64,000 bases of DNA from Levilactobacillus huananensis (GTDB lineage: Bacteria > Bacillota > Bacilli > Lactobacillales > Lactobacillaceae): contig NZ_RHOC01000004.1 of the NCBI RefSeq assembly GCF_003946145.1, forward strand, positions 62,001-126,000, in the 5' to 3' direction. The translations under genes and the position numbers were made by a program. Of the stretch, positions 9,656-61,926 are shown one piece after another. The notes beneath the pieces are model-generated. The model worked only from the letters and a program-made list of their open reading frames with translations. It had not been told where the DNA came from and ran no database searches. Positions within the stretch are counted from its first letter, which is position 1, and each line of letters starts with the position of its first letter.

Positions 9656-10645
9656 ATGCGTCAATCTAGCGCAAAACCACGCCACCTGTTAATTCGGAAA
9701 CATCACTGGCAGCGGATCGTGACCATTGGTGGGGCACTCCTCGCGTTGCTTGGACTGTGGGGGTACCACGCTTGGCAAGCCGCACAGCATACCTTTGACG
9801 GGGCCTACCAATCCGCCGGGATCCATCCCGATGGGAGTGCGATCACCAGCGGCAAACCCTTCGCCGTCCTCCTACTTGGGACCGATACCGGTGCTCTGGG
9901 GCGCCACGACGTCGGACGAACTGATACGATGATCGTGGCGACGATTAATCCCAAGACCCAGACGGCCAAGCTGACCAGTATTCCCCGTGACACCCTGGTC
10001 GACATCTATGGGAGCCAACAAGACGATGAAAAGATCAACGCGGCCTACCCGTTATATGGTGCTAAAACAACGCTGAAGACCGTGGAGCACCTGGTGGATA
10101 TTCCGATTCATTATTACGTCTTGCTCAACATGGGCGGCCTTAAACAGATGGTTAACGCCGTCGGAGGTGTCACCATCAACCCGCTCCTAACCTTCCACTA
10201 CGAACAGGCTAACGTGACCAAGGGCGTTAAGATTCACCTTGACGGGGCCAGTGCTCTGGCCTACTCGCGGATGCGCGATCAGGACCCCTTAGGCGACTAT
10301 GGCCGTCAAGCGCGTCAACGCCAGTTGATCAAGGCTCTCGTCGTTAAAGAAGCCGGTATCAGCTCCATCCCCCATTACCAAGCCGTGCTGGGATCCCTCC
10401 AACACAACATCCAAACCAATCTAACCTTCAACGACCTGATGTGGCTGCGTTTCAAGGACGCTCACACCAGTCGCCATATCGACTCTCTGACGCTTCAGGG
10501 TCAGCCAGCCATTCTAAATGGTATCGACTACCAGGTGGCGCCACAATCCGAGATTGACCAAGTTTCCAACCGTCTGCGCCGTGCTCTGAACTTGCCGGTA
10601 ACGGGCAACTTCCAGACGGATGCATTGGATCCGTTAGTCTTTTAA
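9656..10645 (+). CDS. LytR-CpsA-Psr (LCP) family wall-polymer ligase
   Basis: 329 aa with a short basic cytoplasmic tail, one membrane helix (IVTIGGALLALLGLWGYHAW) and an extracytoplasmic LCP domain from about residue 67. Family landmarks: LLLGTD, GRTDTMIVATINP, SIPRDTLVDI (Arg-Asp that binds the polyprenyl pyrophosphate), NAAYPLYG, AVGGV and the DYGRQARQRQL block. LCP enzymes attach teichoic acids or capsule polymers to peptidoglycan. AAAGGGGGAG lies 7 bp before the ATG, with a good terminator 17 bp after the stop, so it is probably monocistronic. Confidence 0.92.
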   Translation: MRQSSAKPRHLLIRKHHWQRIVTIGGALLALLGLWGYHAWQAAQHTFDGAYQSAGIHPDGSAITSGKPFAVLLLGTDTGALGRHDVGRTDTMIVATINPKTQTAKLTSIPRDTLVDIYGSQQDDEKINAAYPLYGAKTTLKTVEHLVDIPIHYYVLLNMGGLKQMVNAVGGVTINPLLTFHYEQANVTKGVKIHLDGASALAYSRMRDQDPLGDYGRQARQRQLIKALVVKEAGISSIPHYQAVLGSLQHNIQTNLTFNDLMWLRFKDAHTSRHIDSLTLQGQPAILNGIDYQVAPQSEIDQVSNRLRRALNLPVTGNFQTDALDPLVF

Positions 10646-15053: not shown

Positions 15054-16454
15054 TTAAGCTTCCTCTGGGTCCTTATCGACACCAGCGGTCAAGCGAGGAT
15101 GGTTGTTCCCACGCTTCGTTTCTTTTTCCACGGCCTGTTGTGCGACCAAATTCAGATAGTTGAATGGGTCGTCAAAGTTTGGATTAAACAACATATCCAC
15201 GAAGGCCAAGTCATCAATCGTGTTACGGTTTTGAATGGCAATCGAGATGGCATTAGCAGACTGTGCCACTTCATGTTTACTGAAGAATTGGGCCCCTAAG
15301 ATCCGCCGATTCTTCCGATTGTAGACCAGGTTAATCGTCAAGTCATCGGTCGTTGGCATATAGGCTGGCCGCCAAGTCCCATCGAAGGTCACTTGGTCGG
15401 CGTCAAAACCAGCGTTCAAGGCATGGTCGATAGTCAGACCGGTTGAGGCCAATGTCCGGCCAAAGATGACCATGGCTGACGTGGCTTGCGTCCCCATATA
15501 TTGTTGAATGTTTCCAAACACGTTGATCCCCGCCAACATTCCTTGGCGCACGGCATTGGTGGCAAGTGGTGTGTAGGCTGGCTTACCCGTTGGGTTGAAG
15601 TTAACCACACTGGCGTCTCCGCAAGCAAAGATATCGGGATTGGATGTCTGTACGTAATCGTTAATGATGATGGCCCCGTGCCTATCCATCTCAACCTGTC
15701 CCCGTAAGAGTTCGGTATTTGGCACGAATCCGGTACAAACCACGGCTAGGTCGGCCGTGAATTCGCCGTTGGTCGTTTCAATCACCAATTCCCCATTGTC
15801 ATTACCAGTAAAGGACGTCACACGCCGGTTCAACAGTACTTTGACCCCTTCATCAGTTAGGATGCTGACGATGTGATCTGAAAGGCCCTTGTCGACGTAA
15901 TGGTTCAAGATAATGTCTCGTGATTGAATCAACTGAACATCGTGACCCGTCCGCGCGTAACTTTCAGCTAATTCGGTCCCGATATACCCTGCCCCGATAA
16001 TGGCAATCCGCTTGTTATCCTTAGCGGCCTTGTCAATCGCGATAGCTTGTTCATAGTTCTTGCATAACATGACCTTGTCTTCGTCGATCCCAAAAATTGG
16101 TGGAACCGTCACCGTTGACCCTGTCGCCATAATTAATTTGTCATAGGTATCTGTCTTCATGTCTCCGGTGTCCATGTCAACCACTTGAACAGTCTTGCTC
16201 TCGGCATCAATCTTGACGACATTGTGTCGAGTCAAAACCTTTGCTCCCGCTTCGGTCAACTGTTCCGGGGAAGAATAAAACATGTCCTCTAGATGTTTAA
16301 CTTGCCCGTCTAGGAACAAAGAGATCCCGCAAGACAGAAGAGAAACATTCGTATGCCGTTCATAAATGGTAACTTCGGTTTCTGGATGATCTTGCAAAAT
16401 TTGTAACGCTGCATTAGTCCCAGCGTGTGTACTACCAACAATGATGACTTTCAT
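15054..16454 (-). CDS. nox: NADH oxidase, H2O-forming (FAD-dependent)
   Basis: 466 aa. FAD motif VIIVGSTHAGTNAA at the N-terminus; redox Cys42 in SLLSCGISLF (cycles as sulfenic acid); NAD motif IAIIGAGYIGTELAESY near 150; second FAD motif DIFACGDASVV; C-terminal dimer domain. Reduces O2 to water with NADH, which regenerates NAD+ and relieves heterofermentation. His10 of the STHAG motif fits Nox better than plain CoA-disulfide reductase, though the families are close. Separate transcript from the downstream trxA-cstR pair. Confidence 0.9.
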   Translation of the reverse strand: MKVIIVGSTHAGTNAALQILQDHPETEVTIYERHTNVSLLSCGISLFLDGQVKHLEDMFYSSPEQLTEAGAKVLTRHNVVKIDAESKTVQVVDMDTGDMKTDTYDKLIMATGSTVTVPPIFGIDEDKVMLCKNYEQAIAIDKAAKDNKRIAIIGAGYIGTELAESYARTGHDVQLIQSRDIILNHYVDKGLSDHIVSILTDEGVKVLLNRRVTSFTGNDNGELVIETTNGEFTADLAVVCTGFVPNTELLRGQVEMDRHGAIIINDYVQTSNPDIFACGDASVVNFNPTGKPAYTPLATNAVRQGMLAGINVFGNIQQYMGTQATSAMVIFGRTLASTGLTIDHALNAGFDADQVTFDGTWRPAYMPTTDDLTINLVYNRKNRRILGAQFFSKHEVAQSANAISIAIQNRNTIDDLAFVDMLFNPNFDDPFNYLNLVAQQAVEKETKRGNNHPRLTAGVDKDPEEA

Positions 16455-16663: not shown

Positions 16664-16974
16664 CGCGTTTTATCAGCAGTTACACAATTATTTATATTGC
16701 AAGTTTCATGACTGCATCACTGACCGGCCGTCGATACCATGATCGGTCACCCCCCTTGGCGAAAAAGGAGATTTTTAACCGCTTTCATGTTAAAATCGTC
16801 CGCCACTTATCGCATGATAACGCTAATCAGTAACCGTTTACCGCTGTTAATCACCTGTGCCTAATCCGTACTGGGATCCCCCCTAAATGACCACCAAAGT
16901 TAATTATCTAGCCACTTCTGCAAAAGAGTTACATTTTGCTTGCTTACAAACTGACTGGTGACTATGATTAACAC

Positions 16975-17126
16975 TAGTTAGTTCGTGATACGTTCTGACC
17001 TTAAGCACTGTGATAGAAGTTAGGAATCACTGTCTATAGATGCACTCCCCCCAAAACAAGTGATTTATTAACAAATTCCTAAAATATGGCCTTGAGCGAT
17101 CCGCATGTCGCTTGAGGCTTTTCTTT
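16975..17126 (+). ncRNA. Candidate C-rich small RNA 1
   Basis: Promoter TTGCTT (16940-16945), 17 bp, TATGAT (16963-16968), then about 150 nt ending in a Rho-independent terminator (GCCTTGAGCGA / TCGCTTGAGGC, 17089-17118, then TTTTCTTTT). A hairpin GTGAT / ATCAC precedes the unpaired motif GCACTCCCCCCAAAA. The motif is shared with the candidate at 18405. No open frame with a ribosome site. C-rich single-stranded patches are typical of Firmicute sRNAs that pair with Shine-Dalgarno sequences. Confidence 0.5.
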
Positions 17127-17142
17127 TGCCCTTTTTTCAATA

Positions 17143-17175
17143 AAAATAAAAAAGACACCCTTAAAGTAGATGTCT
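17143..17175 (-). terminator. Terminator overlapping the dedA stop codon
   Basis: On the minus strand AGACATC pairs with GGTGTCT and runs into T6-A-T5. Confidence 0.65.
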
Positions 17176-17809
17176 ACGTGCGCTGACGCCAGGCTGTTAG
17201 GCCACGTTTCACCATGACTGGTATCACCATCAGTACCAAGAATAACCAGGTAAAATTCTGTCGAATGAAGGGCGTATTGCCGAAGAAGTAGCCCACGGCG
17301 CAACAACTAAAGACCCACAAGAAGCTTCCGAGTAAGTTGTAAATCCGAAATTGACGCCAGGCCATGTCTGCCGTCCCAGCCATAATGGGAACGAAGAGCC
17401 CAACGAAGGGAATGAAACGCCCAATCAACAGCGTTTCGCCTTCATTATTGGTAAAGGACGTGGTGGCCTCAGCAACCTTCTGGTCTGGTAACCGCGCGAT
17501 CAGTCTGGCCTGCCGGTCATGCCACCGAATGGTGGTCAGGTACTTGATGGCCGATCCCAGGGTGGCCGCCATCGTAAATATCACAATTAACCACCAAATA
17601 TTCAGCTCTGACGCTGGTGCGGCCGCGATCGATCCCACCATAAATAACAATGATTGACCGGGAATAAAGGAAAAGATCAGCATTCCCGACTCTAAAAAAA
17701 TAAGAAAGAATAGCACCGGGTAGATCCCAGTCCCCAATTGATTGGTCAGAGGAACCAGGACACTCAGCGGATGCCAGATGATCGCCCAGATTTCAGCGAG
17801 TAATGTCAT
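17174..17809 (-). CDS. DedA-family membrane protein
   Basis: 211 aa, about five hydrophobic segments. Family landmarks: FFLIFLESGMLIFSFIPGQS, with the E-x-G...P-G-x-S re-entrant loop, and GRFIPFVGLFVPIMAGTADM, with the R-F-x-P and G motif. DedA proteins are putative undecaprenyl-phosphate or phospholipid translocases linked to membrane homeostasis. GGAGG lies 7 bp before the ATG. It stands alone between two gene-poor stretches that each carry an sRNA candidate. Confidence 0.88.
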   Translation of the reverse strand: MTLLAEIWAIIWHPLSVLVPLTNQLGTGIYPVLFFLIFLESGMLIFSFIPGQSLLFMVGSIAAAPASELNIWWLIVIFTMAATLGSAIKYLTTIRWHDRQARLIARLPDQKVAEATTSFTNNEGETLLIGRFIPFVGLFVPIMAGTADMAWRQFRIYNLLGSFLWVFSCCAVGYFFGNTPFIRQNFTWLFLVLMVIPVMVKRGLTAWRQRT

Positions 17810-17826
17810 GTTACGACCTCCATGAT

Positions 17827-18404
17827 TAATCGGGACTAAATCTCCAAATTAATCCAATATCTATAAACCATTAACAGGTGGCTATTGTAACTTTAATCAC
17901 GACAAATAGCCGATTTTTGTTTCTTTTGATGCGTAAAATGTAAATAATAGTTAAGACGTCTAATCATTTTTCAATTCTCCAAGTAAGGTAACACGGTCGT
18001 GTTAGGCGACCATCCGTTACAAAACCTTCACGAAACTTAGTTATCACTGATGGCCAACGTCCTTTACAAAAACTCCGTAAAAACAGTGCCTCACAGTTGG
18101 AAAAGTGTCGCTAAGTCCCGTCCTTACTATCCCGCGGTCTATTATACGGTTATTTCCAGCAAAAACCGCGCTTTTCTTCAACAAAAAATGGCCGTCGAAT
18201 ATTTTTCGACGGTCGTCAGCCCTTATTCCTCAGGCCTTTAACACGATTATATTTTGTGTCTATTTCTCTAATATTTGTGCCCCAACATTTTTAATCGACT
18301 TGCTCATTCATTCCTAGAAGCGACTTAAAAAAGCCGCTAACCAGTTATTAGTAAATTTATGAAACCAATCAATTGCGCCTAATCTTGCCAGGGGGTACAC
18401 TACA
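17827..18404. other. Long AT-richer non-coding stretch
   Basis: No convincing gene. It carries dedA promoter sequences on the minus strand, a minus-strand terminator at 18183-18216, a weak inverted repeat near 18132-18171 (CGGT / ACCG), and the promoter of sRNA candidate 2 at its right end. Short open frames here lack ribosome sites. Confidence 0.5.
18183..18216 (-). terminator. Minus-strand terminator in gene-free DNA
   Basis: CCGTCGAA (18192-18199) / TTCGACGG (18205-18212), followed on the minus strand by ATTTTTTG. The nearest minus-strand gene upstream is degV, 590 bp away, so either degV has a very long 3' UTR or an unseen RNA ends here. Confidence 0.65.
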
Positions 18405-18554
18405 AGCAAGTTAGTAGCAACGACGCTGCTAGCTGCGTTGCATCAATTCTTATTACTCTTTTTACGAGCAGCAATTAGCACTCCCCCAAAGTTTCTAAGA
18501 AACCTGCTCGTATCCCCCCTCAAGCCGCGATAGTTCGATATCGTGGCTTTTTTG
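18405..18554 (+). ncRNA. Candidate C-rich small RNA 2
   Basis: Possible promoter TTGCGC, 17 bp, TACACT. Then a GCAACG / CGTTGC hairpin; an 8-bp perfect stem ACGAGCAG (18464-18471) / CTGCTCGT (18504-18511) whose loop carries GCACTCCCCCAAA and a small GTTTC / GAAAC hairpin; a free ATCCCCCCTC; and a terminator AAGCCGCGATA / TATCGTGGCTT with T6. About 150 nt with no reading frame. It shares GCACTCCCCC(C)AAA with candidate 1 and the same strand. Confidence 0.6.
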
Positions 18555-18555
18555 T

Positions 18556-18801
18556 GCCACTGGTGAAGGGGCTTCTCCCCCGTCTGCGTCACCTAACCAG
18601 ACTCGTTGCAACCAGGCTTAGCCTAAACAACGTCTGCTAGGAAGTCTATCTAGGTCGGTCTTAGCCGGTCAAAAGGCAAGCATCATCCATGGTTCACCAT
18701 CCCCGTTAGGAAACTAACCTCCGCAACTAGGGGATGGCGAAACCGTGTTGCTTTCGCCATCAATGTCACCGCGAGTCGTCCTTTGCCACCTCGCGGCAGA
18801 A
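18556..18801 (-). other. Dense hairpin region 3' of degV
   Basis: Perfect stems: GATGGCGAAA (18733-18742) / TTTCGCCATC (18752-18761), CCGCGAG (18769-18775) / CTCGCGG (18790-18796), CCATCCCC (18697-18704) / GGGGATGG (18730-18737) with GTTAG / CTAAC inside, and AGGCT / AGCCT. The first and third stems share GATGG and exclude each other. No T-run follows any of them. The minus strand would be the degV 3' UTR. Confidence 0.55.
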
Positions 18802-19656
18802 CTAGTCCAACACCTGAACCCCAACGCCAATCAGTCCTGGCCCCGTGTGTACCCCCAGTGCAGGCGACACATCCCCAGCATACCAGTCCTCCACGTTCGG
18901 ATGGGCGGCTTTTAAGGCCGTTAAAACGCGCTCTCGCAGGTCCGGGTCGGCCCCGTCACAGACGGCCACGTTAACCCGTTTAGCGGTGCCAATGGCGTTA
19001 TTAACGAGCTCTAACAGCTTGCCTAGGGTTCGTTTGGTCCCACGAACCTTGGCGATTGGGTAATAGATCCCCTCTTCATCACACGAAATAATCGGCTTTA
19101 CATTTAAGAGTGTGCCGGCCATCCCGGCAACCTTGCCAATTCGACCACCAGCCTGAAGGTATTTCAGGGATGGCACATAGAAGAAGACCTTCGTCTGGGC
19201 AGTCACCCGTTCCACTTCCGCCACAATCTCATCAAAAGATTTGCCAGCATCACGTAACTGAGCCGCATAAATAGCCGCAAATCCACTTCCGATCCCGACA
19301 CTGCGGGTATTGATAACGTGTACCGTCAGATCGGTATCGGCGGCCAATAGCTGTGTCTCCTGGTAGGTGCCAGACAGAGCCGCCGAGATACAAACCGCAA
19401 TCACATGCGTGTAGCCAGATTCCTGAATCCGTTCCAGCGCGTCCATGATGTGCTTACCCGTGGGACTCGCTGTGGTGGCCTTCTCGTTGGCTTGGCGTCG
19501 ATAGAATTCGGTTGGGGTGATGGTGACACGGTCCTCGTAGGCCCGATCGCGGAAAATCACATTCATCGGCATTAAGGCCATGTCCGCCGCTTCAAGCACT
19601 GCGGCTGGAACGTCGGAACATGAGTCCACCAAAATGGCAATCTTTTCTTGTGACAT
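18802..19656 (-). CDS. DegV family fatty-acid-binding protein
   Basis: 284 aa, full length. An N-terminal EDD/DegV domain begins IAILVDSCSDVP; TASPTGKHIMDAL and ISAALSGTYQ are the ligand-contact motifs (Thr and Ser around the bound acyl carboxylate). The C-terminal half contains VKPIISCDEEG. DegV/FakB proteins present fatty acids to the FakA kinase for phospholipid synthesis. GAGG lies 8 bp before the ATG. Which FakB subtype it is cannot be read from sequence. Confidence 0.9.
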   Translation of the reverse strand: MSQEKIAILVDSCSDVPAAVLEAADMALMPMNVIFRDRAYEDRVTITPTEFYRRQANEKATTASPTGKHIMDALERIQESGYTHVIAVCISAALSGTYQETQLLAADTDLTVHVINTRSVGIGSGFAAIYAAQLRDAGKSFDEIVAEVERVTAQTKVFFYVPSLKYLQAGGRIGKVAGMAGTLLNVKPIISCDEEGIYYPIAKVRGTKRTLGKLLELVNNAIGTAKRVNVAVCDGADPDLRERVLTALKAAHPNVEDWYAGDVSPALGVHTGPGLIGVGVQVLD

Positions 19657-30966: not shown

Positions 30967-31668
30967 ATGAAAAATACAATTCTACTGGTCGAAGACGAGG
31001 AAGGCCTCGCCAGTTACGTTGCCAAGGAGCTGACCTTCGAAGACTTTACGGTCATCACGGCCGCAGACGGTGAGGAAGCCTGGGAAACGTATCAGAAAAA
31101 ACGCGACGAGTTGCTTTTAGTTCTATTAGACTGGATGTTGCCAAAGATGGATGGCATGCAGGTTCTCCGCCGGATTCGTCAACACGATGACCTGCCCGTC
31201 ATTATGATGACGGCCCGTGACTACCTTGGCGACAAGGTCACCGGCCTAGATACAGGCGCCGATGACTATATCACGAAACCCTTCGAAATCGAGGAACTCC
31301 TCGCCCGAATTCGGGTCATCCAGCGCCGCGCTGAACATCAAGCTGGTCGCGATCAGGCCTACCACTTAGCCGACCTGACCCTGGTTACCAAGACGCGTCA
31401 GGTCGATCGTGGGGGCCGTAACCTCCAGCTTACCCAGCGCGAATACGATCTCTTACTCTTCTTACTGCAACATCCCGGTCAGGTCTTTACCCGAGATGAA
31501 CTCCTCGACAACGTCTGGGGAGTCGACTTTCTCGGCCAACAGAACGTGGTCGACGTCTACATCGGCTACCTTCGTAATAAAATTGACGTAGGCGACGCGC
31601 CGCACCTATTTCACACGGTGCGTGGCGTCGGCTACAGCCTAAAGGAAGATGATGCTGATGCGAACTAA
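30967..31668 (+). CDS. OmpR-family response regulator
   Basis: 233 aa. Receiver domain 1-120 with the acidic pair (LVEDEEG), phospho-acceptor Asp in LVLLDWMLPKMDG, Thr in MMTARD and Lys in DYITKPF. Winged-helix DNA-binding domain from about 135 (LTLVTKTRQVDRGGRNLQLT, YDLLLFLLQHPGQVFTRDEL, VDVYIGYLRNKID, TVRGVGYSL). Sequence type resembles ArlR/CovR. GAAGGAG lies before the ATG. It overlaps the kinase gene by 17 bp. Confidence 0.93.
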   Translation: MKNTILLVEDEEGLASYVAKELTFEDFTVITAADGEEAWETYQKKRDELLLVLLDWMLPKMDGMQVLRRIRQHDDLPVIMMTARDYLGDKVTGLDTGADDYITKPFEIEELLARIRVIQRRAEHQAGRDQAYHLADLTLVTKTRQVDRGGRNLQLTQREYDLLLFLLQHPGQVFTRDELLDNVWGVDFLGQQNVVDVYIGYLRNKIDVGDAPHLFHTVRGVGYSLKEDDADAN

Positions 31669-33019
31669 ACAACCGCGCTCTTACGCGGATATCATTCGTC
31701 ATTCGTTTACCAGTCTGCTGGTAACGATTGGGATCGTCATCGTACTCACGGTCAGTATCACCCTAGTGGTCGACCAACTCACTCGCGCCCAGAACCAGGC
31801 CGCCCAGCTGAGTGCCAGCCTCCAAACCTCCCAGGTCAGCAACTTTCAGGACTGGCTCAAGATTAACCAAGCGAGTGGCCTGAACTCCCACAACACATTT
31901 GTCTTCATCAAACAAGCCAATGGCACCACCACGTCACTGCTCCCACGAGGTGCCGCACTTGCAGCGGCTAAGACCTGGTCGATTCCCTTCACCCATTTGA
32001 CTTACTTCAAGGGCTGGGGACTCTACTTCTCCGAATCACTCAAAACAGGCGGTCGAACCTACGATCTCTTCATTGGAATGCACGTTCTGGTTGGCAATCT
32101 CCACATCTTAATTGCAGTCCTTATCATTATTATTGGTTTGAGCTTCCTGATTGGGCTGGCCTACGTTCGCCGATTAGCCAACCGGATTAGTGCTCCCACT
32201 ATCACCTTGGCCCAGGCGGCCCAGCAGGCCGCGGCCAATCCCGAGAGTACCCAACCGGAACTACCGCGTCCTACAGAACCGGTAGAAGTGGCCCAACTAG
32301 CGCGCGACTTTAATCAGCTTCTAGCTGCTCAGAATGGTCGATTGCAACGCGAACGTCAATTTATCTCTGACGCTTCACATGAACTTCGAACTCCCATTGC
32401 CACCATCCGCGGCAATCTCAAATTAATCGAACGTCGCGGAGAACAGCATCCCGAGGTCATCCCTGAATCACTAGGCTTCATCGACCAAGAATCTCTGCGG
32501 ATGCAACATCTAATTGAAAACTTACTCCATCTGTCCCGAGCGGATCGCGCCGCAGTCACCCTAGAGCCTCTGGATATCGCGCTCATGGCCCAAGGCGTCG
32601 TCGAGCACTACCAACCCCTGGTCAGCCAACCGTTGACGTTTAACGGTCCCGCAACACCAGCCATGGCTCTGGGTAATCAGGATATGCTCCACCAAATCCT
32701 GACGGCCCTCCTCGACAATGCCCACAAGTACTCACCAGAAGACCAGCCCATTGCGGTTACTGTCGCCACAACCAACGACCACGTCACCCTTACGGTGGCC
32801 GACCAAGGGATAGGGATCGCGCCGGAGAATCGCCAGCACATCTTTGAACGTTTCTATCGCGTCGATGCTGCCCGGTCCAATAAGATTACGGGTAACGGTC
32901 TGGGACTCGCCATCGTGTCACAACTGGTCCGTCTCAACCACGGGACAATTGCTGTCACCGACAACACACCTCACGGTAGTCGATTTACCATAACCCTGGC
33001 CACTGCAAAAGAAAAATAA
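31652..33019 (+). CDS. Sensor histidine kinase (ArlS-like)
   Basis: 455 aa. Helix 1 (LLVTIGIVIVLTVSITLVVD), an extracytoplasmic sensor of about 115 residues, helix 2 (LIAVLIIIIGLSFLIGLAYV), HAMP, dimerisation box with His in FISDASHELRTPIATIRGNL, then N box (LLDNAHKYSPEDQP), G1 (VADQGIGIAPEN) and G2 (GNGLGLAIVSQL). Start taken as the second of two adjacent ATGs (31652), 5 bp after AAAGGA; 31649 is equally in frame. Forms a pair with the preceding regulator. Confidence 0.9.
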   Translation: MLMRTKQPRSYADIIRHSFTSLLVTIGIVIVLTVSITLVVDQLTRAQNQAAQLSASLQTSQVSNFQDWLKINQASGLNSHNTFVFIKQANGTTTSLLPRGAALAAAKTWSIPFTHLTYFKGWGLYFSESLKTGGRTYDLFIGMHVLVGNLHILIAVLIIIIGLSFLIGLAYVRRLANRISAPTITLAQAAQQAAANPESTQPELPRPTEPVEVAQLARDFNQLLAAQNGRLQRERQFISDASHELRTPIATIRGNLKLIERRGEQHPEVIPESLGFIDQESLRMQHLIENLLHLSRADRAAVTLEPLDIALMAQGVVEHYQPLVSQPLTFNGPATPAMALGNQDMLHQILTALLDNAHKYSPEDQPIAVTVATTNDHVTLTVADQGIGIAPENRQHIFERFYRVDAARSNKITGNGLGLAIVSQLVRLNHGTIAVTDNTPHGSRFTITLATAKEK

Positions 33020-60957: not shown

Positions 60958-61926
60958 ATGCCACAAATTAACCTTGCCGACGTCCAGGACGTCTTTCGTG
61001 ATGCCGGTAAAAACGTGTTATTTACCACCTTGCTCATTGATCGAAGTGACCGCATCAAAGCACGTGAGGCCATGGCCTGTTTTGCCGATCGCTTAGGGGC
61101 CACCGAACGCAGCTTAAACGTTCGCTACCCTCAAGCCGAGCTCCGCGTAGCGTTTGGTTTGGGGGCCAGCGCCTGGCAACTTCTATTTCCAACAATCCGA
61201 CCGCCAAAAGAGCTCGTCGACTTTCAACCGGTCGTTGGTCCCAAGTATACGGCACCAGCCACGCCCGGCGATCTCTTCTTGCATATTCGCGCTAATGATA
61301 TGGCCGTCGTCTATGAGATGGCTGCCGAGCTCCATGAATTTCTCCACAGCTGGACGAGCGTCGTGGATGAGACAGTCGGTTTTCGCTACTTCGAAGGTCG
61401 GGCCATCATTGGGTTCGTCGATGGCACCGAGAATCCGGCGGGACCCGAAGCCCCAGACTATGCCATCATTGGGGATGAAGATCCCGAATTCATTAACGGC
61501 TCTTACGCCTTTGCCCAGAAATACACCCACAATCTGGATGCTTGGAACAATCTGGCTACCGAGGACCAAGAACGGGCCATCGGTCGTCACAAGTTCAGCG
61601 ATCAGGAACTCTACGACGATGACAAATTGCCTAACGCCCACAACTTGGCCTCCCAAGACAATGATGATGGCGTGGAGCATAAGATTGTTCGCATGAATGT
61701 CCCCTATGGTGACCCAATCCGCGGCGTAACCGGCACTTACTTTATTGGCTACGCTCGCCACTTCACTGTCACGCAACGCATGCTTGAGAACATGTTTACA
61801 CAAAGTGACCGACTACTGGACTTCAGTACGCCAATCACGGGAAACGCCTTCTTCATCCCTGCGTGGTCTCTACTGGCCCGTATTGCGGATGGCGATCTCT
61901 TTCCGGTAGACTATCCGGACGATTAA
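60958..61926 (+). CDS. DyP-type heme peroxidase
   Basis: 322 aa. Ferredoxin-like twin domains. The distal GxxDG motif is seen in GFVDGTENPAG (catalytic Asp); the proximal heme-ligand His is likely in GVEHKIVRMNVPYGD; Arg is in IGYARHFTVTQR. No signal peptide or Tat motif, so cytosolic. Uses H2O2 to oxidise substrates; fits with H2O2 made by pyruvate oxidase. GAGGGGGAG lies before the ATG; TATACT about 45 bp upstream may be its -10. Confidence 0.92.
   Translation: MPQINLADVQDVFRDAGKNVLFTTLLIDRSDRIKAREAMACFADRLGATERSLNVRYPQAELRVAFGLGASAWQLLFPTIRPPKELVDFQPVVGPKYTAPATPGDLFLHIRANDMAVVYEMAAELHEFLHSWTSVVDETVGFRYFEGRAIIGFVDGTENPAGPEAPDYAIIGDEDPEFINGSYAFAQKYTHNLDAWNNLATEDQERAIGRHKFSDQELYDDDKLPNAHNLASQDNDDGVEHKIVRMNVPYGDPIRGVTGTYFIGYARHFTVTQRMLENMFTQSDRLLDFSTPITGNAFFIPAWSLLARIADGDLFPVDYPDD

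Follow-up and report, generated by a model that had tools for sequence, protein, structure and literature searches.

Two conserved small RNA genes with C-rich motifs beside dedA in Levilactobacillus as candidate anti-Shine-Dalgarno regulators

Two RNAs of ~150 nt, sRNA1 and sRNA2, encoded on the plus strand of the Levilactobacillus huananensis genome (2.29 Mb, 35 contigs), are almost certainly small RNA genes, because promoter, C-rich motif, and terminator are conserved across the genus, in its close as well as its distant members. They lie by dedA, where the initial annotation had placed them, within the 64,000-nucleotide stretch of DNA analysed here (the window), and model matches locate both (Table 1); conservation of the C-motif and terminator in relatives was half of the test that the initial annotation had set. 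The genes themselves, their conservation, their structure, and the invariance of their C-rich motifs are direct observations. We consider it probable that sRNA1 and sRNA2 are independently transcribed, trans-acting sRNAs that repress translation via C-rich anti-Shine-Dalgarno seeds, forming a functional trio with a third RNA (sRNA3) encoded elsewhere in the genome. Each would present its seed in a hairpin loop, with sRNA2 also doing so in the linker ahead of its terminator; pairing of these seeds at G-rich ribosome sites would most likely repress translation and, secondarily, affect mRNA stability. The trio would thus be united by a common seed and not by recent duplication.

Table 1. Positions of the RNA genes, their component elements, and neighbouring genes (window coordinates unless otherwise indicated)
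Feature	Position	Strand	Basis or remark
NADH oxidase/CoA-disulfide reductase-like gene	15054-16454	-	Neighbour of the RNA loci
Conserved element upstream of sRNA1 promoter (CACTT ... GTTACA)	16913-16938	+	Putative regulator site
sRNA1 promoter: TTGCTT (16940-16945), 17 nt, TATGAT (16963-16968)	16940-16968	+	Direct reading
sRNA1, ~150 nt	16977-17126	+	Alignment A1, covariation, model match (174 bits); exact 5' end predicted
sRNA1 5' hairpin	16977-16999	+	Predicted structure, alignment
sRNA1 central hairpin with C-rich loop	17022-17080	+	Consistent pairing, covariation almost nil
Invariant sRNA1 motif GCACTCCCCCCAAAACA, C-run and A-run in loop	17042-17058	+	Proposed anti-Shine-Dalgarno seed
sRNA1 intrinsic terminator	17088-17126	+	Scan (17088-17119), alignment, covariation
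dedA (VTT domain) gene, between both RNAs	17174-17809	-	Pfam VTT_dom
AT-rich element upstream of sRNA2 promoter (TTATTAGTAAATTTATGAAACCAAT)	18345-18369	+	Largely conserved; putative function
sRNA2 promoter: TTGCGC (18373-18378), 17 nt, TACACT (18396-18401)	18373-18401	+	Direct reading
sRNA2, ~149 nt	18407-18555	+	Alignment A2, covariation, model match (157 bits); exact 5' end predicted
sRNA2 5' hairpin, covarying	18410-18433	+	Predicted structure, alignment
sRNA2 central hairpin ACGAGCAG...CTGCTCGT	18464-18511	+	Predicted structure, alignment
Invariant sRNA2 motif GCACTCCCCCAAAGT, first C-rich patch	18478-18492	+	Same in 21/21 rows
Second sRNA2 C-rich patch CCCCCCTCA, single-stranded linker	18514-18522	+	Five C plus TCA in 21/21 rows
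sRNA2 intrinsic terminator	18522-18555	+	Scan (18522-18549), predicted structure
degV gene	18802-19656	-	Neighbour of the RNA loci
sRNA3	G000:C1:15541-15710 (L204 1416-1585)	-	Outside the window; match of model R3

Levilactobacillus belongs to the Lactobacillaceae, and within this genus each RNA is present in 22 of the 24 genomes. Across a blastn sample of 40 genomes (the source genome, 23 others of the genus, and 16 same-order genomes), sRNA1 was found in 21 and sRNA2 in 22, all of the same genus; i.e., in the source genome plus 20/23 and 21/23 congeners, respectively, with neither RNA detected by blastn in the 16 same-order genomes from outside it. The additional sRNA1 is a diverged copy in genome G022, found by model search (E 1e-13), which retains GCACTCCCCCCAA. 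Neither RNA was detected by blastn in G006 (72% complete) or G017 (100% complete), the latter also having been covered by model search. By blastn, each RNA occupies one place per genome; in G011, sRNA2 is divided between two contigs. Under strict filters, models R1 (sRNA1) and R2 (sRNA2) each matched 8 genomes of Levilactobacillus among 201 family genomes, and a search at higher sensitivity, covering 31 genomes of the 10 further genera in which sRNA3 was matched, yielded nothing convincing. An R1 match in another genus (L052) comprised the terminator only and was discarded. Among 21 weak rows (14 R1, 7 R2), the 15 inspected (all but 6 weaker R1 rows) had the C-motif at the match only in the G022 copy itself (L305, same genus); at L308, a C-run lay ~900 bases away. 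A 21-mer of sRNA1 occurred in 28 records, namely 25 of Levilactobacillus, one of Lactobacillus sp., one metagenome-assembled genome (MAG) of an uncultured Lactobacillus sp., and one unrelated MAG; a Dehalococcoidales match to this 21-mer (L251) was rejected, the surrounding RNA being absent.

sRNA1 is also better conserved than the genes beside it: over up to 18 loci, its median identity was 88%, while the NADH oxidase-like gene reached 78%, dedA 69%, and intergenic DNA 53% and 43%. For sRNA2, identity to the window copy had a median of 79% (range 68-97, 20 rows); in the locus set used for the sRNA1 and gene comparison, 12 of the 18 loci reach sRNA2, with a median of 77%. For both RNAs, conservation is beyond chance, as is covariation.

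In alignment A1 (21 rows, made without the later-found G022 copy), 98% of cells were paired, compared to 35-41% in slid controls, and 12 pairs displayed changes on both sides versus 5.1 in shuffles, with the covariation score reached by 0/500 shuffles. This covariation resides almost wholly in the terminator stem, in which 11 of 13 pairs change on both sides; the central hairpin hardly varies, and its support is thus one of consistency and not of covariation. In alignment A2 (21 rows, without the G011 copy, the 5' part of which is lost at a contig end), 99.3% of cells were paired and 5 pairs had changed on both sides versus 2.1 in shuffles (2/500), these being located in the 5' hairpin and the terminator. 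A measure of further pair types was matched by 37/500 shuffles for A1 and 65/500 for A2.

Set within this structure, the C-rich motif is identical in 21/21 aligned rows of sRNA1 and in 21/21 of sRNA2, making it the most conserved site and bearing out the proposed likeness to Firmicute C-rich sRNAs. Runs of five or more C are themselves common in the window (60 on the plus strand, 21 on the minus). The initial annotation had the motif unpaired, which holds for the C-runs, situated in predicted loops, and fails for the preceding CACT/ACT, which pairs within the stem. The three hairpins of sRNA2 and its second C6 run (18514-18519), in the linker ahead of the terminator, were as had been described. 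In sRNA1, 21/21 rows keep ATCCGCATGT (17099-17108; the CCGCAT loop with its two closing pairs) unaltered, while the terminator stem around it covaries. Such an invariant element within a changing stem is unusual for a mere terminator, and the sRNA1 terminator loop may possibly constitute a second recognition site.

The two RNAs had been presented as a duplicated regulator pair. Their common sequence amounts to GCACTCCCCC(C/A)AA and little more, the best local alignment between them being this 13-nt motif, a result equalled by 16/500 shuffles; searched up to E 10, R1 does not find sRNA2 in the window, nor does R2 find sRNA1. With no more than the motif in common and neither model finding the other RNA, duplication is unsupported: a common seed is evident, common descent is not.

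A third C-rich RNA lies beyond the window. The pattern WCTCCCCCMAA gave 28 matches in three genomes (three species) versus 4 for the reversed control, and comparison of the 400 bases around each site revealed broad cross-species alignment at exactly three RNAs, i.e., sRNA1, sRNA2, and sRNA3; two further matching loci align over 17 and 30 bases only. sRNA3 adjoins a gene for a CPBP (Rce1-like) protease; its loops contain ACTCCCCCAAAGT and ATCCCCCA, and it also has a terminator; the 13-nt ACTCCCCCAAAGT is all that sRNA2 has in common with it. Its alignment (A3) is without G002, missed by the pattern. Model R3 matches 39/201 family genomes in 11/40 genera, with 1-4 loci in each genome, sometimes arranged in tandem, and finds nothing in the window when searched up to E 10, placing sRNA1 and sRNA2 outside the sRNA3 family.

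Across 44 matches of the sRNA3 family (40 distinct), 53/57 pairs change on both sides versus 42.2 in shuffles, with 542 both-side-changed cells versus 159.5 and a covariation score of 0.536 versus 0.145 (0/500 shuffles), in an alignment that was fitted to the model and thus favours structure. Reading of the motif covered 20 of the 31 R3-matched genomes outside Levilactobacillus, representing 9/10 other genera, and left out the other 11 genomes, including both of genus g36, and one locus set comprised 33 loci, leaving out L258-L265, L270, L272, and L274. In 40/40 distinct copies, a CAT lies 5-7 nt before a CCYCC run, a figure favoured by the search model, which itself includes the motif (the automatic count was 39/40, with the remaining row, which has an earlier C-run, resolved on inspection); as background, a CAT lies anywhere within 14 nt of 40/153 CCYCC runs of the window. 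The anti-AUG/anti-SD order is retained in copies whose letters have changed (CATAGACTCCCCC, CATTTCCTTCCCCCC), and in many copies the reverse complement reads GGAGGAGTAAAATGAAA, i.e., a ribosome site plus start codon. In 11/40 copies, no ATG is present in the opposite arm, so the CAT of these copies is not accounted for by pairing within the hairpin.

Upstream of 30/38 copies outside Levilactobacillus (L266-L297) stands TYAYA-N6-TCAYA, for which shuffles gave a mean of 0.25 and a maximum of 3; the pattern was drawn up after viewing the sequences, and the copies are mutually related. TTHAYA pairs occur at spacing 5 in 17/38 copies, whereas no other spacing between 0 and 12 was seen in more than 2. 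The repeat was present in 0/5 distinct Levilactobacillus sRNA3 copies and was likewise absent from sRNA1 and sRNA2. We take these 11-bp direct repeats to resemble OmpR-type regulator sites, and the repeat is probably a response-regulator site. Separately, the window itself encodes a two-component system at 30967-33016 (OmpR-type response regulator and histidine kinase), for which none of the 25 families listed for each gene reaches the cut-off.

On a broader scale, we tentatively suggest, with rather less confidence than for the function of the two RNAs, that Lactobacillaceae possess an RNA system of their own directed against translation starts, in which multicopy sRNA3, with a hairpin that would mirror a translation start in antisense (anti-SD plus anti-AUG), would be two-component-driven via TYAYA-N6-TCAYA in most genera having sRNA3. 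Levilactobacillus may have supplemented this system with two further, unrelated RNAs that use the same seed, one bearing a second invariant recognition loop in its terminator.

From these features we infer transcription of sRNA1 and sRNA2, the mode of repression, and any particular target. For G-rich ribosome sites, GGGGGAGTN{0,12}ATG matched 17 times in the source genome (reversed control, 3) and 119 times in seven other species (control, 45). Their standing as specific targets, as initially put forward, is putative. The form GGGGGAGT accounted for 17 of the 227 GGGGGANN sites lying close to an ATG in the source genome, or 7.5% versus the 6.25% expected for one dinucleotide in sixteen, amounting to no enrichment ahead of start codons. 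When 126 sites were clustered (excluding two G013 sites and overlapping duplicates), GGGGGAGT was conserved at a MarR gene in 8/8 genomes, at an ABC permease gene (presumably PstC-like) in 6/8, and at a beta-lactamase-family gene in 5/8. Among control ribosome sites, that of the NADH oxidase-like gene was fixed in 20/20 genomes, that of degV was largely fixed, and that of dedA was variable; since unrelated sites can be equally fixed, the conserved GGGGGAGT of the former three genes is weak evidence, and such sites were dropped as proof of targeting following the controls and enrichment test. Of the 56 genes called in the window, 5-6 attain -17 kcal/mol with each of the sRNA1 and sRNA2 seeds (by crude gene calling and with no accessibility term), the strongest duplexes, at -17 to -21.5 kcal/mol versus a mean near -10, falling at genes with G-rich ribosome sites. 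A LytR-CpsA-Psr gene (9656-10642) and a Dyp-type peroxidase gene (60958-61923), each with a GGGGGAGT ribosome site, are among the stronger pairing candidates of the window.

Alternatively, the main partner of the C-rich loops could be a G-rich sponge RNA or a protein instead of mRNA ribosome sites; the target signal at ribosome sites was no better than background. The invariant sRNA1 terminator loop suggests a further binding site, and a precedent exists in B. subtilis RosA, described in PMC8216469 as a G-rich sponge of the C-rich RoxS and FsrA. However, the sole conserved G-rich candidate encountered, at L075, proved to be an antisense reading of sRNA3, with promoter, terminator, and the wider family placing the transcript on the C-rich strand, and the order of anti-SD and anti-AUG across the sRNA3 family points to translation starts. 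We regard binding chiefly to a sponge or protein as unlikely and favour the pairing of both seeds with ribosome sites.

The proximity of both RNAs to dedA and degV could alternatively imply leaders, attenuators, or terminator read-through of neighbouring genes. Both are intergenic, with no co-oriented gene downstream, and neither is the leader of a co-oriented gene because dedA, degV, and the NADH oxidase-like gene are all on the minus strand. Moreover, in genome G016 (G016:C6:288585-289199) the two loci lie 320 bp apart, which is too short for dedA, so both RNAs persist without the intervening gene. Each also has its own promoter; as annotated, these are promoter-like starts, weak relative to the sigma-70 consensus and below the threshold of a generic scan, and in the genus alignments they stay in place while some of their letters change. 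Upstream of the sRNA1 promoter, the 16913-16938 element is conserved above the surrounding DNA in 20 aligned genus genomes. The terminators, called strong in the initial annotation, were both listed by the scan; as 6 such sites occur in the region versus 3.4 in shuffles, they prove little by themselves. Given the orientation, the G016 arrangement, and the separate promoters, a leader or read-through origin is very improbable.

Least probable of all is that sRNA1 and sRNA2 encode very small peptides, whether as dual-function RNAs or peptide genes, for, in agreement with the initial finding of no reading frame, the only frames over the motifs are not convincing: a 7-codon ATG frame in sRNA1 has no ribosome site ahead and is lost from the G022 copy that retains the C-motif, a 31-codon TTG frame in sRNA2 is shifted by one-base indels in close relatives, and sequence changes fall in paired stems.

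To our knowledge, post-transcriptional control in lactobacilli is little charted. Our literature search found no paper describing sRNA1, sRNA2, or the sRNA3 family, and no title on Levilactobacillus sRNAs, the nearest title being a 6S RNA survey in lactic acid bacteria (PMC8414754). The three RNA families, whose seeds, structures, and promoters are defined and one of which occurs in 11/40 sampled genera, offer experimental targets in food and probiotic species, and these apparently unrelated RNAs provide an example case of the same seed being carried by different molecules.

In relation to known systems, sRNA1 and sRNA2 have the conserved single-stranded C-motif of the functional class of Firmicute C-rich anti-Shine-Dalgarno sRNAs, as well as, judged by sequence alone, its own promoter, intrinsic terminator, and intergenic position. 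Rfam 15 returned no matches over the window at gathering score (though it may not include all of RsaE/RoxS, FsrA, LhrC, and csRNA); a permissive scan of 16800-18700 and scans of sRNA3-family loci (sets of 5 and 16) gave sub-threshold matches only. RoxS is the homologue of RsaE. In B. subtilis and Staphylococcus, the C-rich regions of RoxS (RsaE), FsrA, and CsfG pair with G-rich sites, and there are three such C-rich RNAs in one genome, as with sRNA1-3 here (PMC8216469); in addition to the missing Rfam-threshold match in the window, the loops, loci, and promoters of sRNA1 and sRNA2 differ from these. The Listeria monocytogenes LhrC1-5 RNAs carry repeated CUCCC in loop, linker, and terminator loop and pair over the Shine-Dalgarno sequence; they are multicopy, as is the sRNA3 family, and under two-component control, which is putative for the RNAs herein (PMC4132741). 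sRNA1 and sRNA2 have no Rfam match and, unlike LhrC, each occupy a single place per genome by blastn and are mutually dissimilar.

The streptococcal CiaR-dependent csRNAs are multicopy, with an anti-SD plus anti-AUG seed and the promoter repeat TTTAAG-N5-TTTAAG, a 6-N5-6 arrangement that is shared by TTHAYA-N5-TTHAYA upstream of 17/38 sRNA3-family copies (PMC3091779). The repeat itself differs, and the csRNA seed is unpaired between two stem-loops, whereas that of the sRNA3 family is mostly within a hairpin; the same paper finds homologues of CiaH among streptococci but none in Lactobacillus (PMC3091779). By direct reading, sRNA1 and sRNA2 have neither an anti-AUG at start-site spacing nor the CiaR repeat upstream. 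Ultimately, while by the tests run members of none of these families, sRNA1 and sRNA2 would resemble RoxS/FsrA, LhrC, and the csRNAs in their mode of action.
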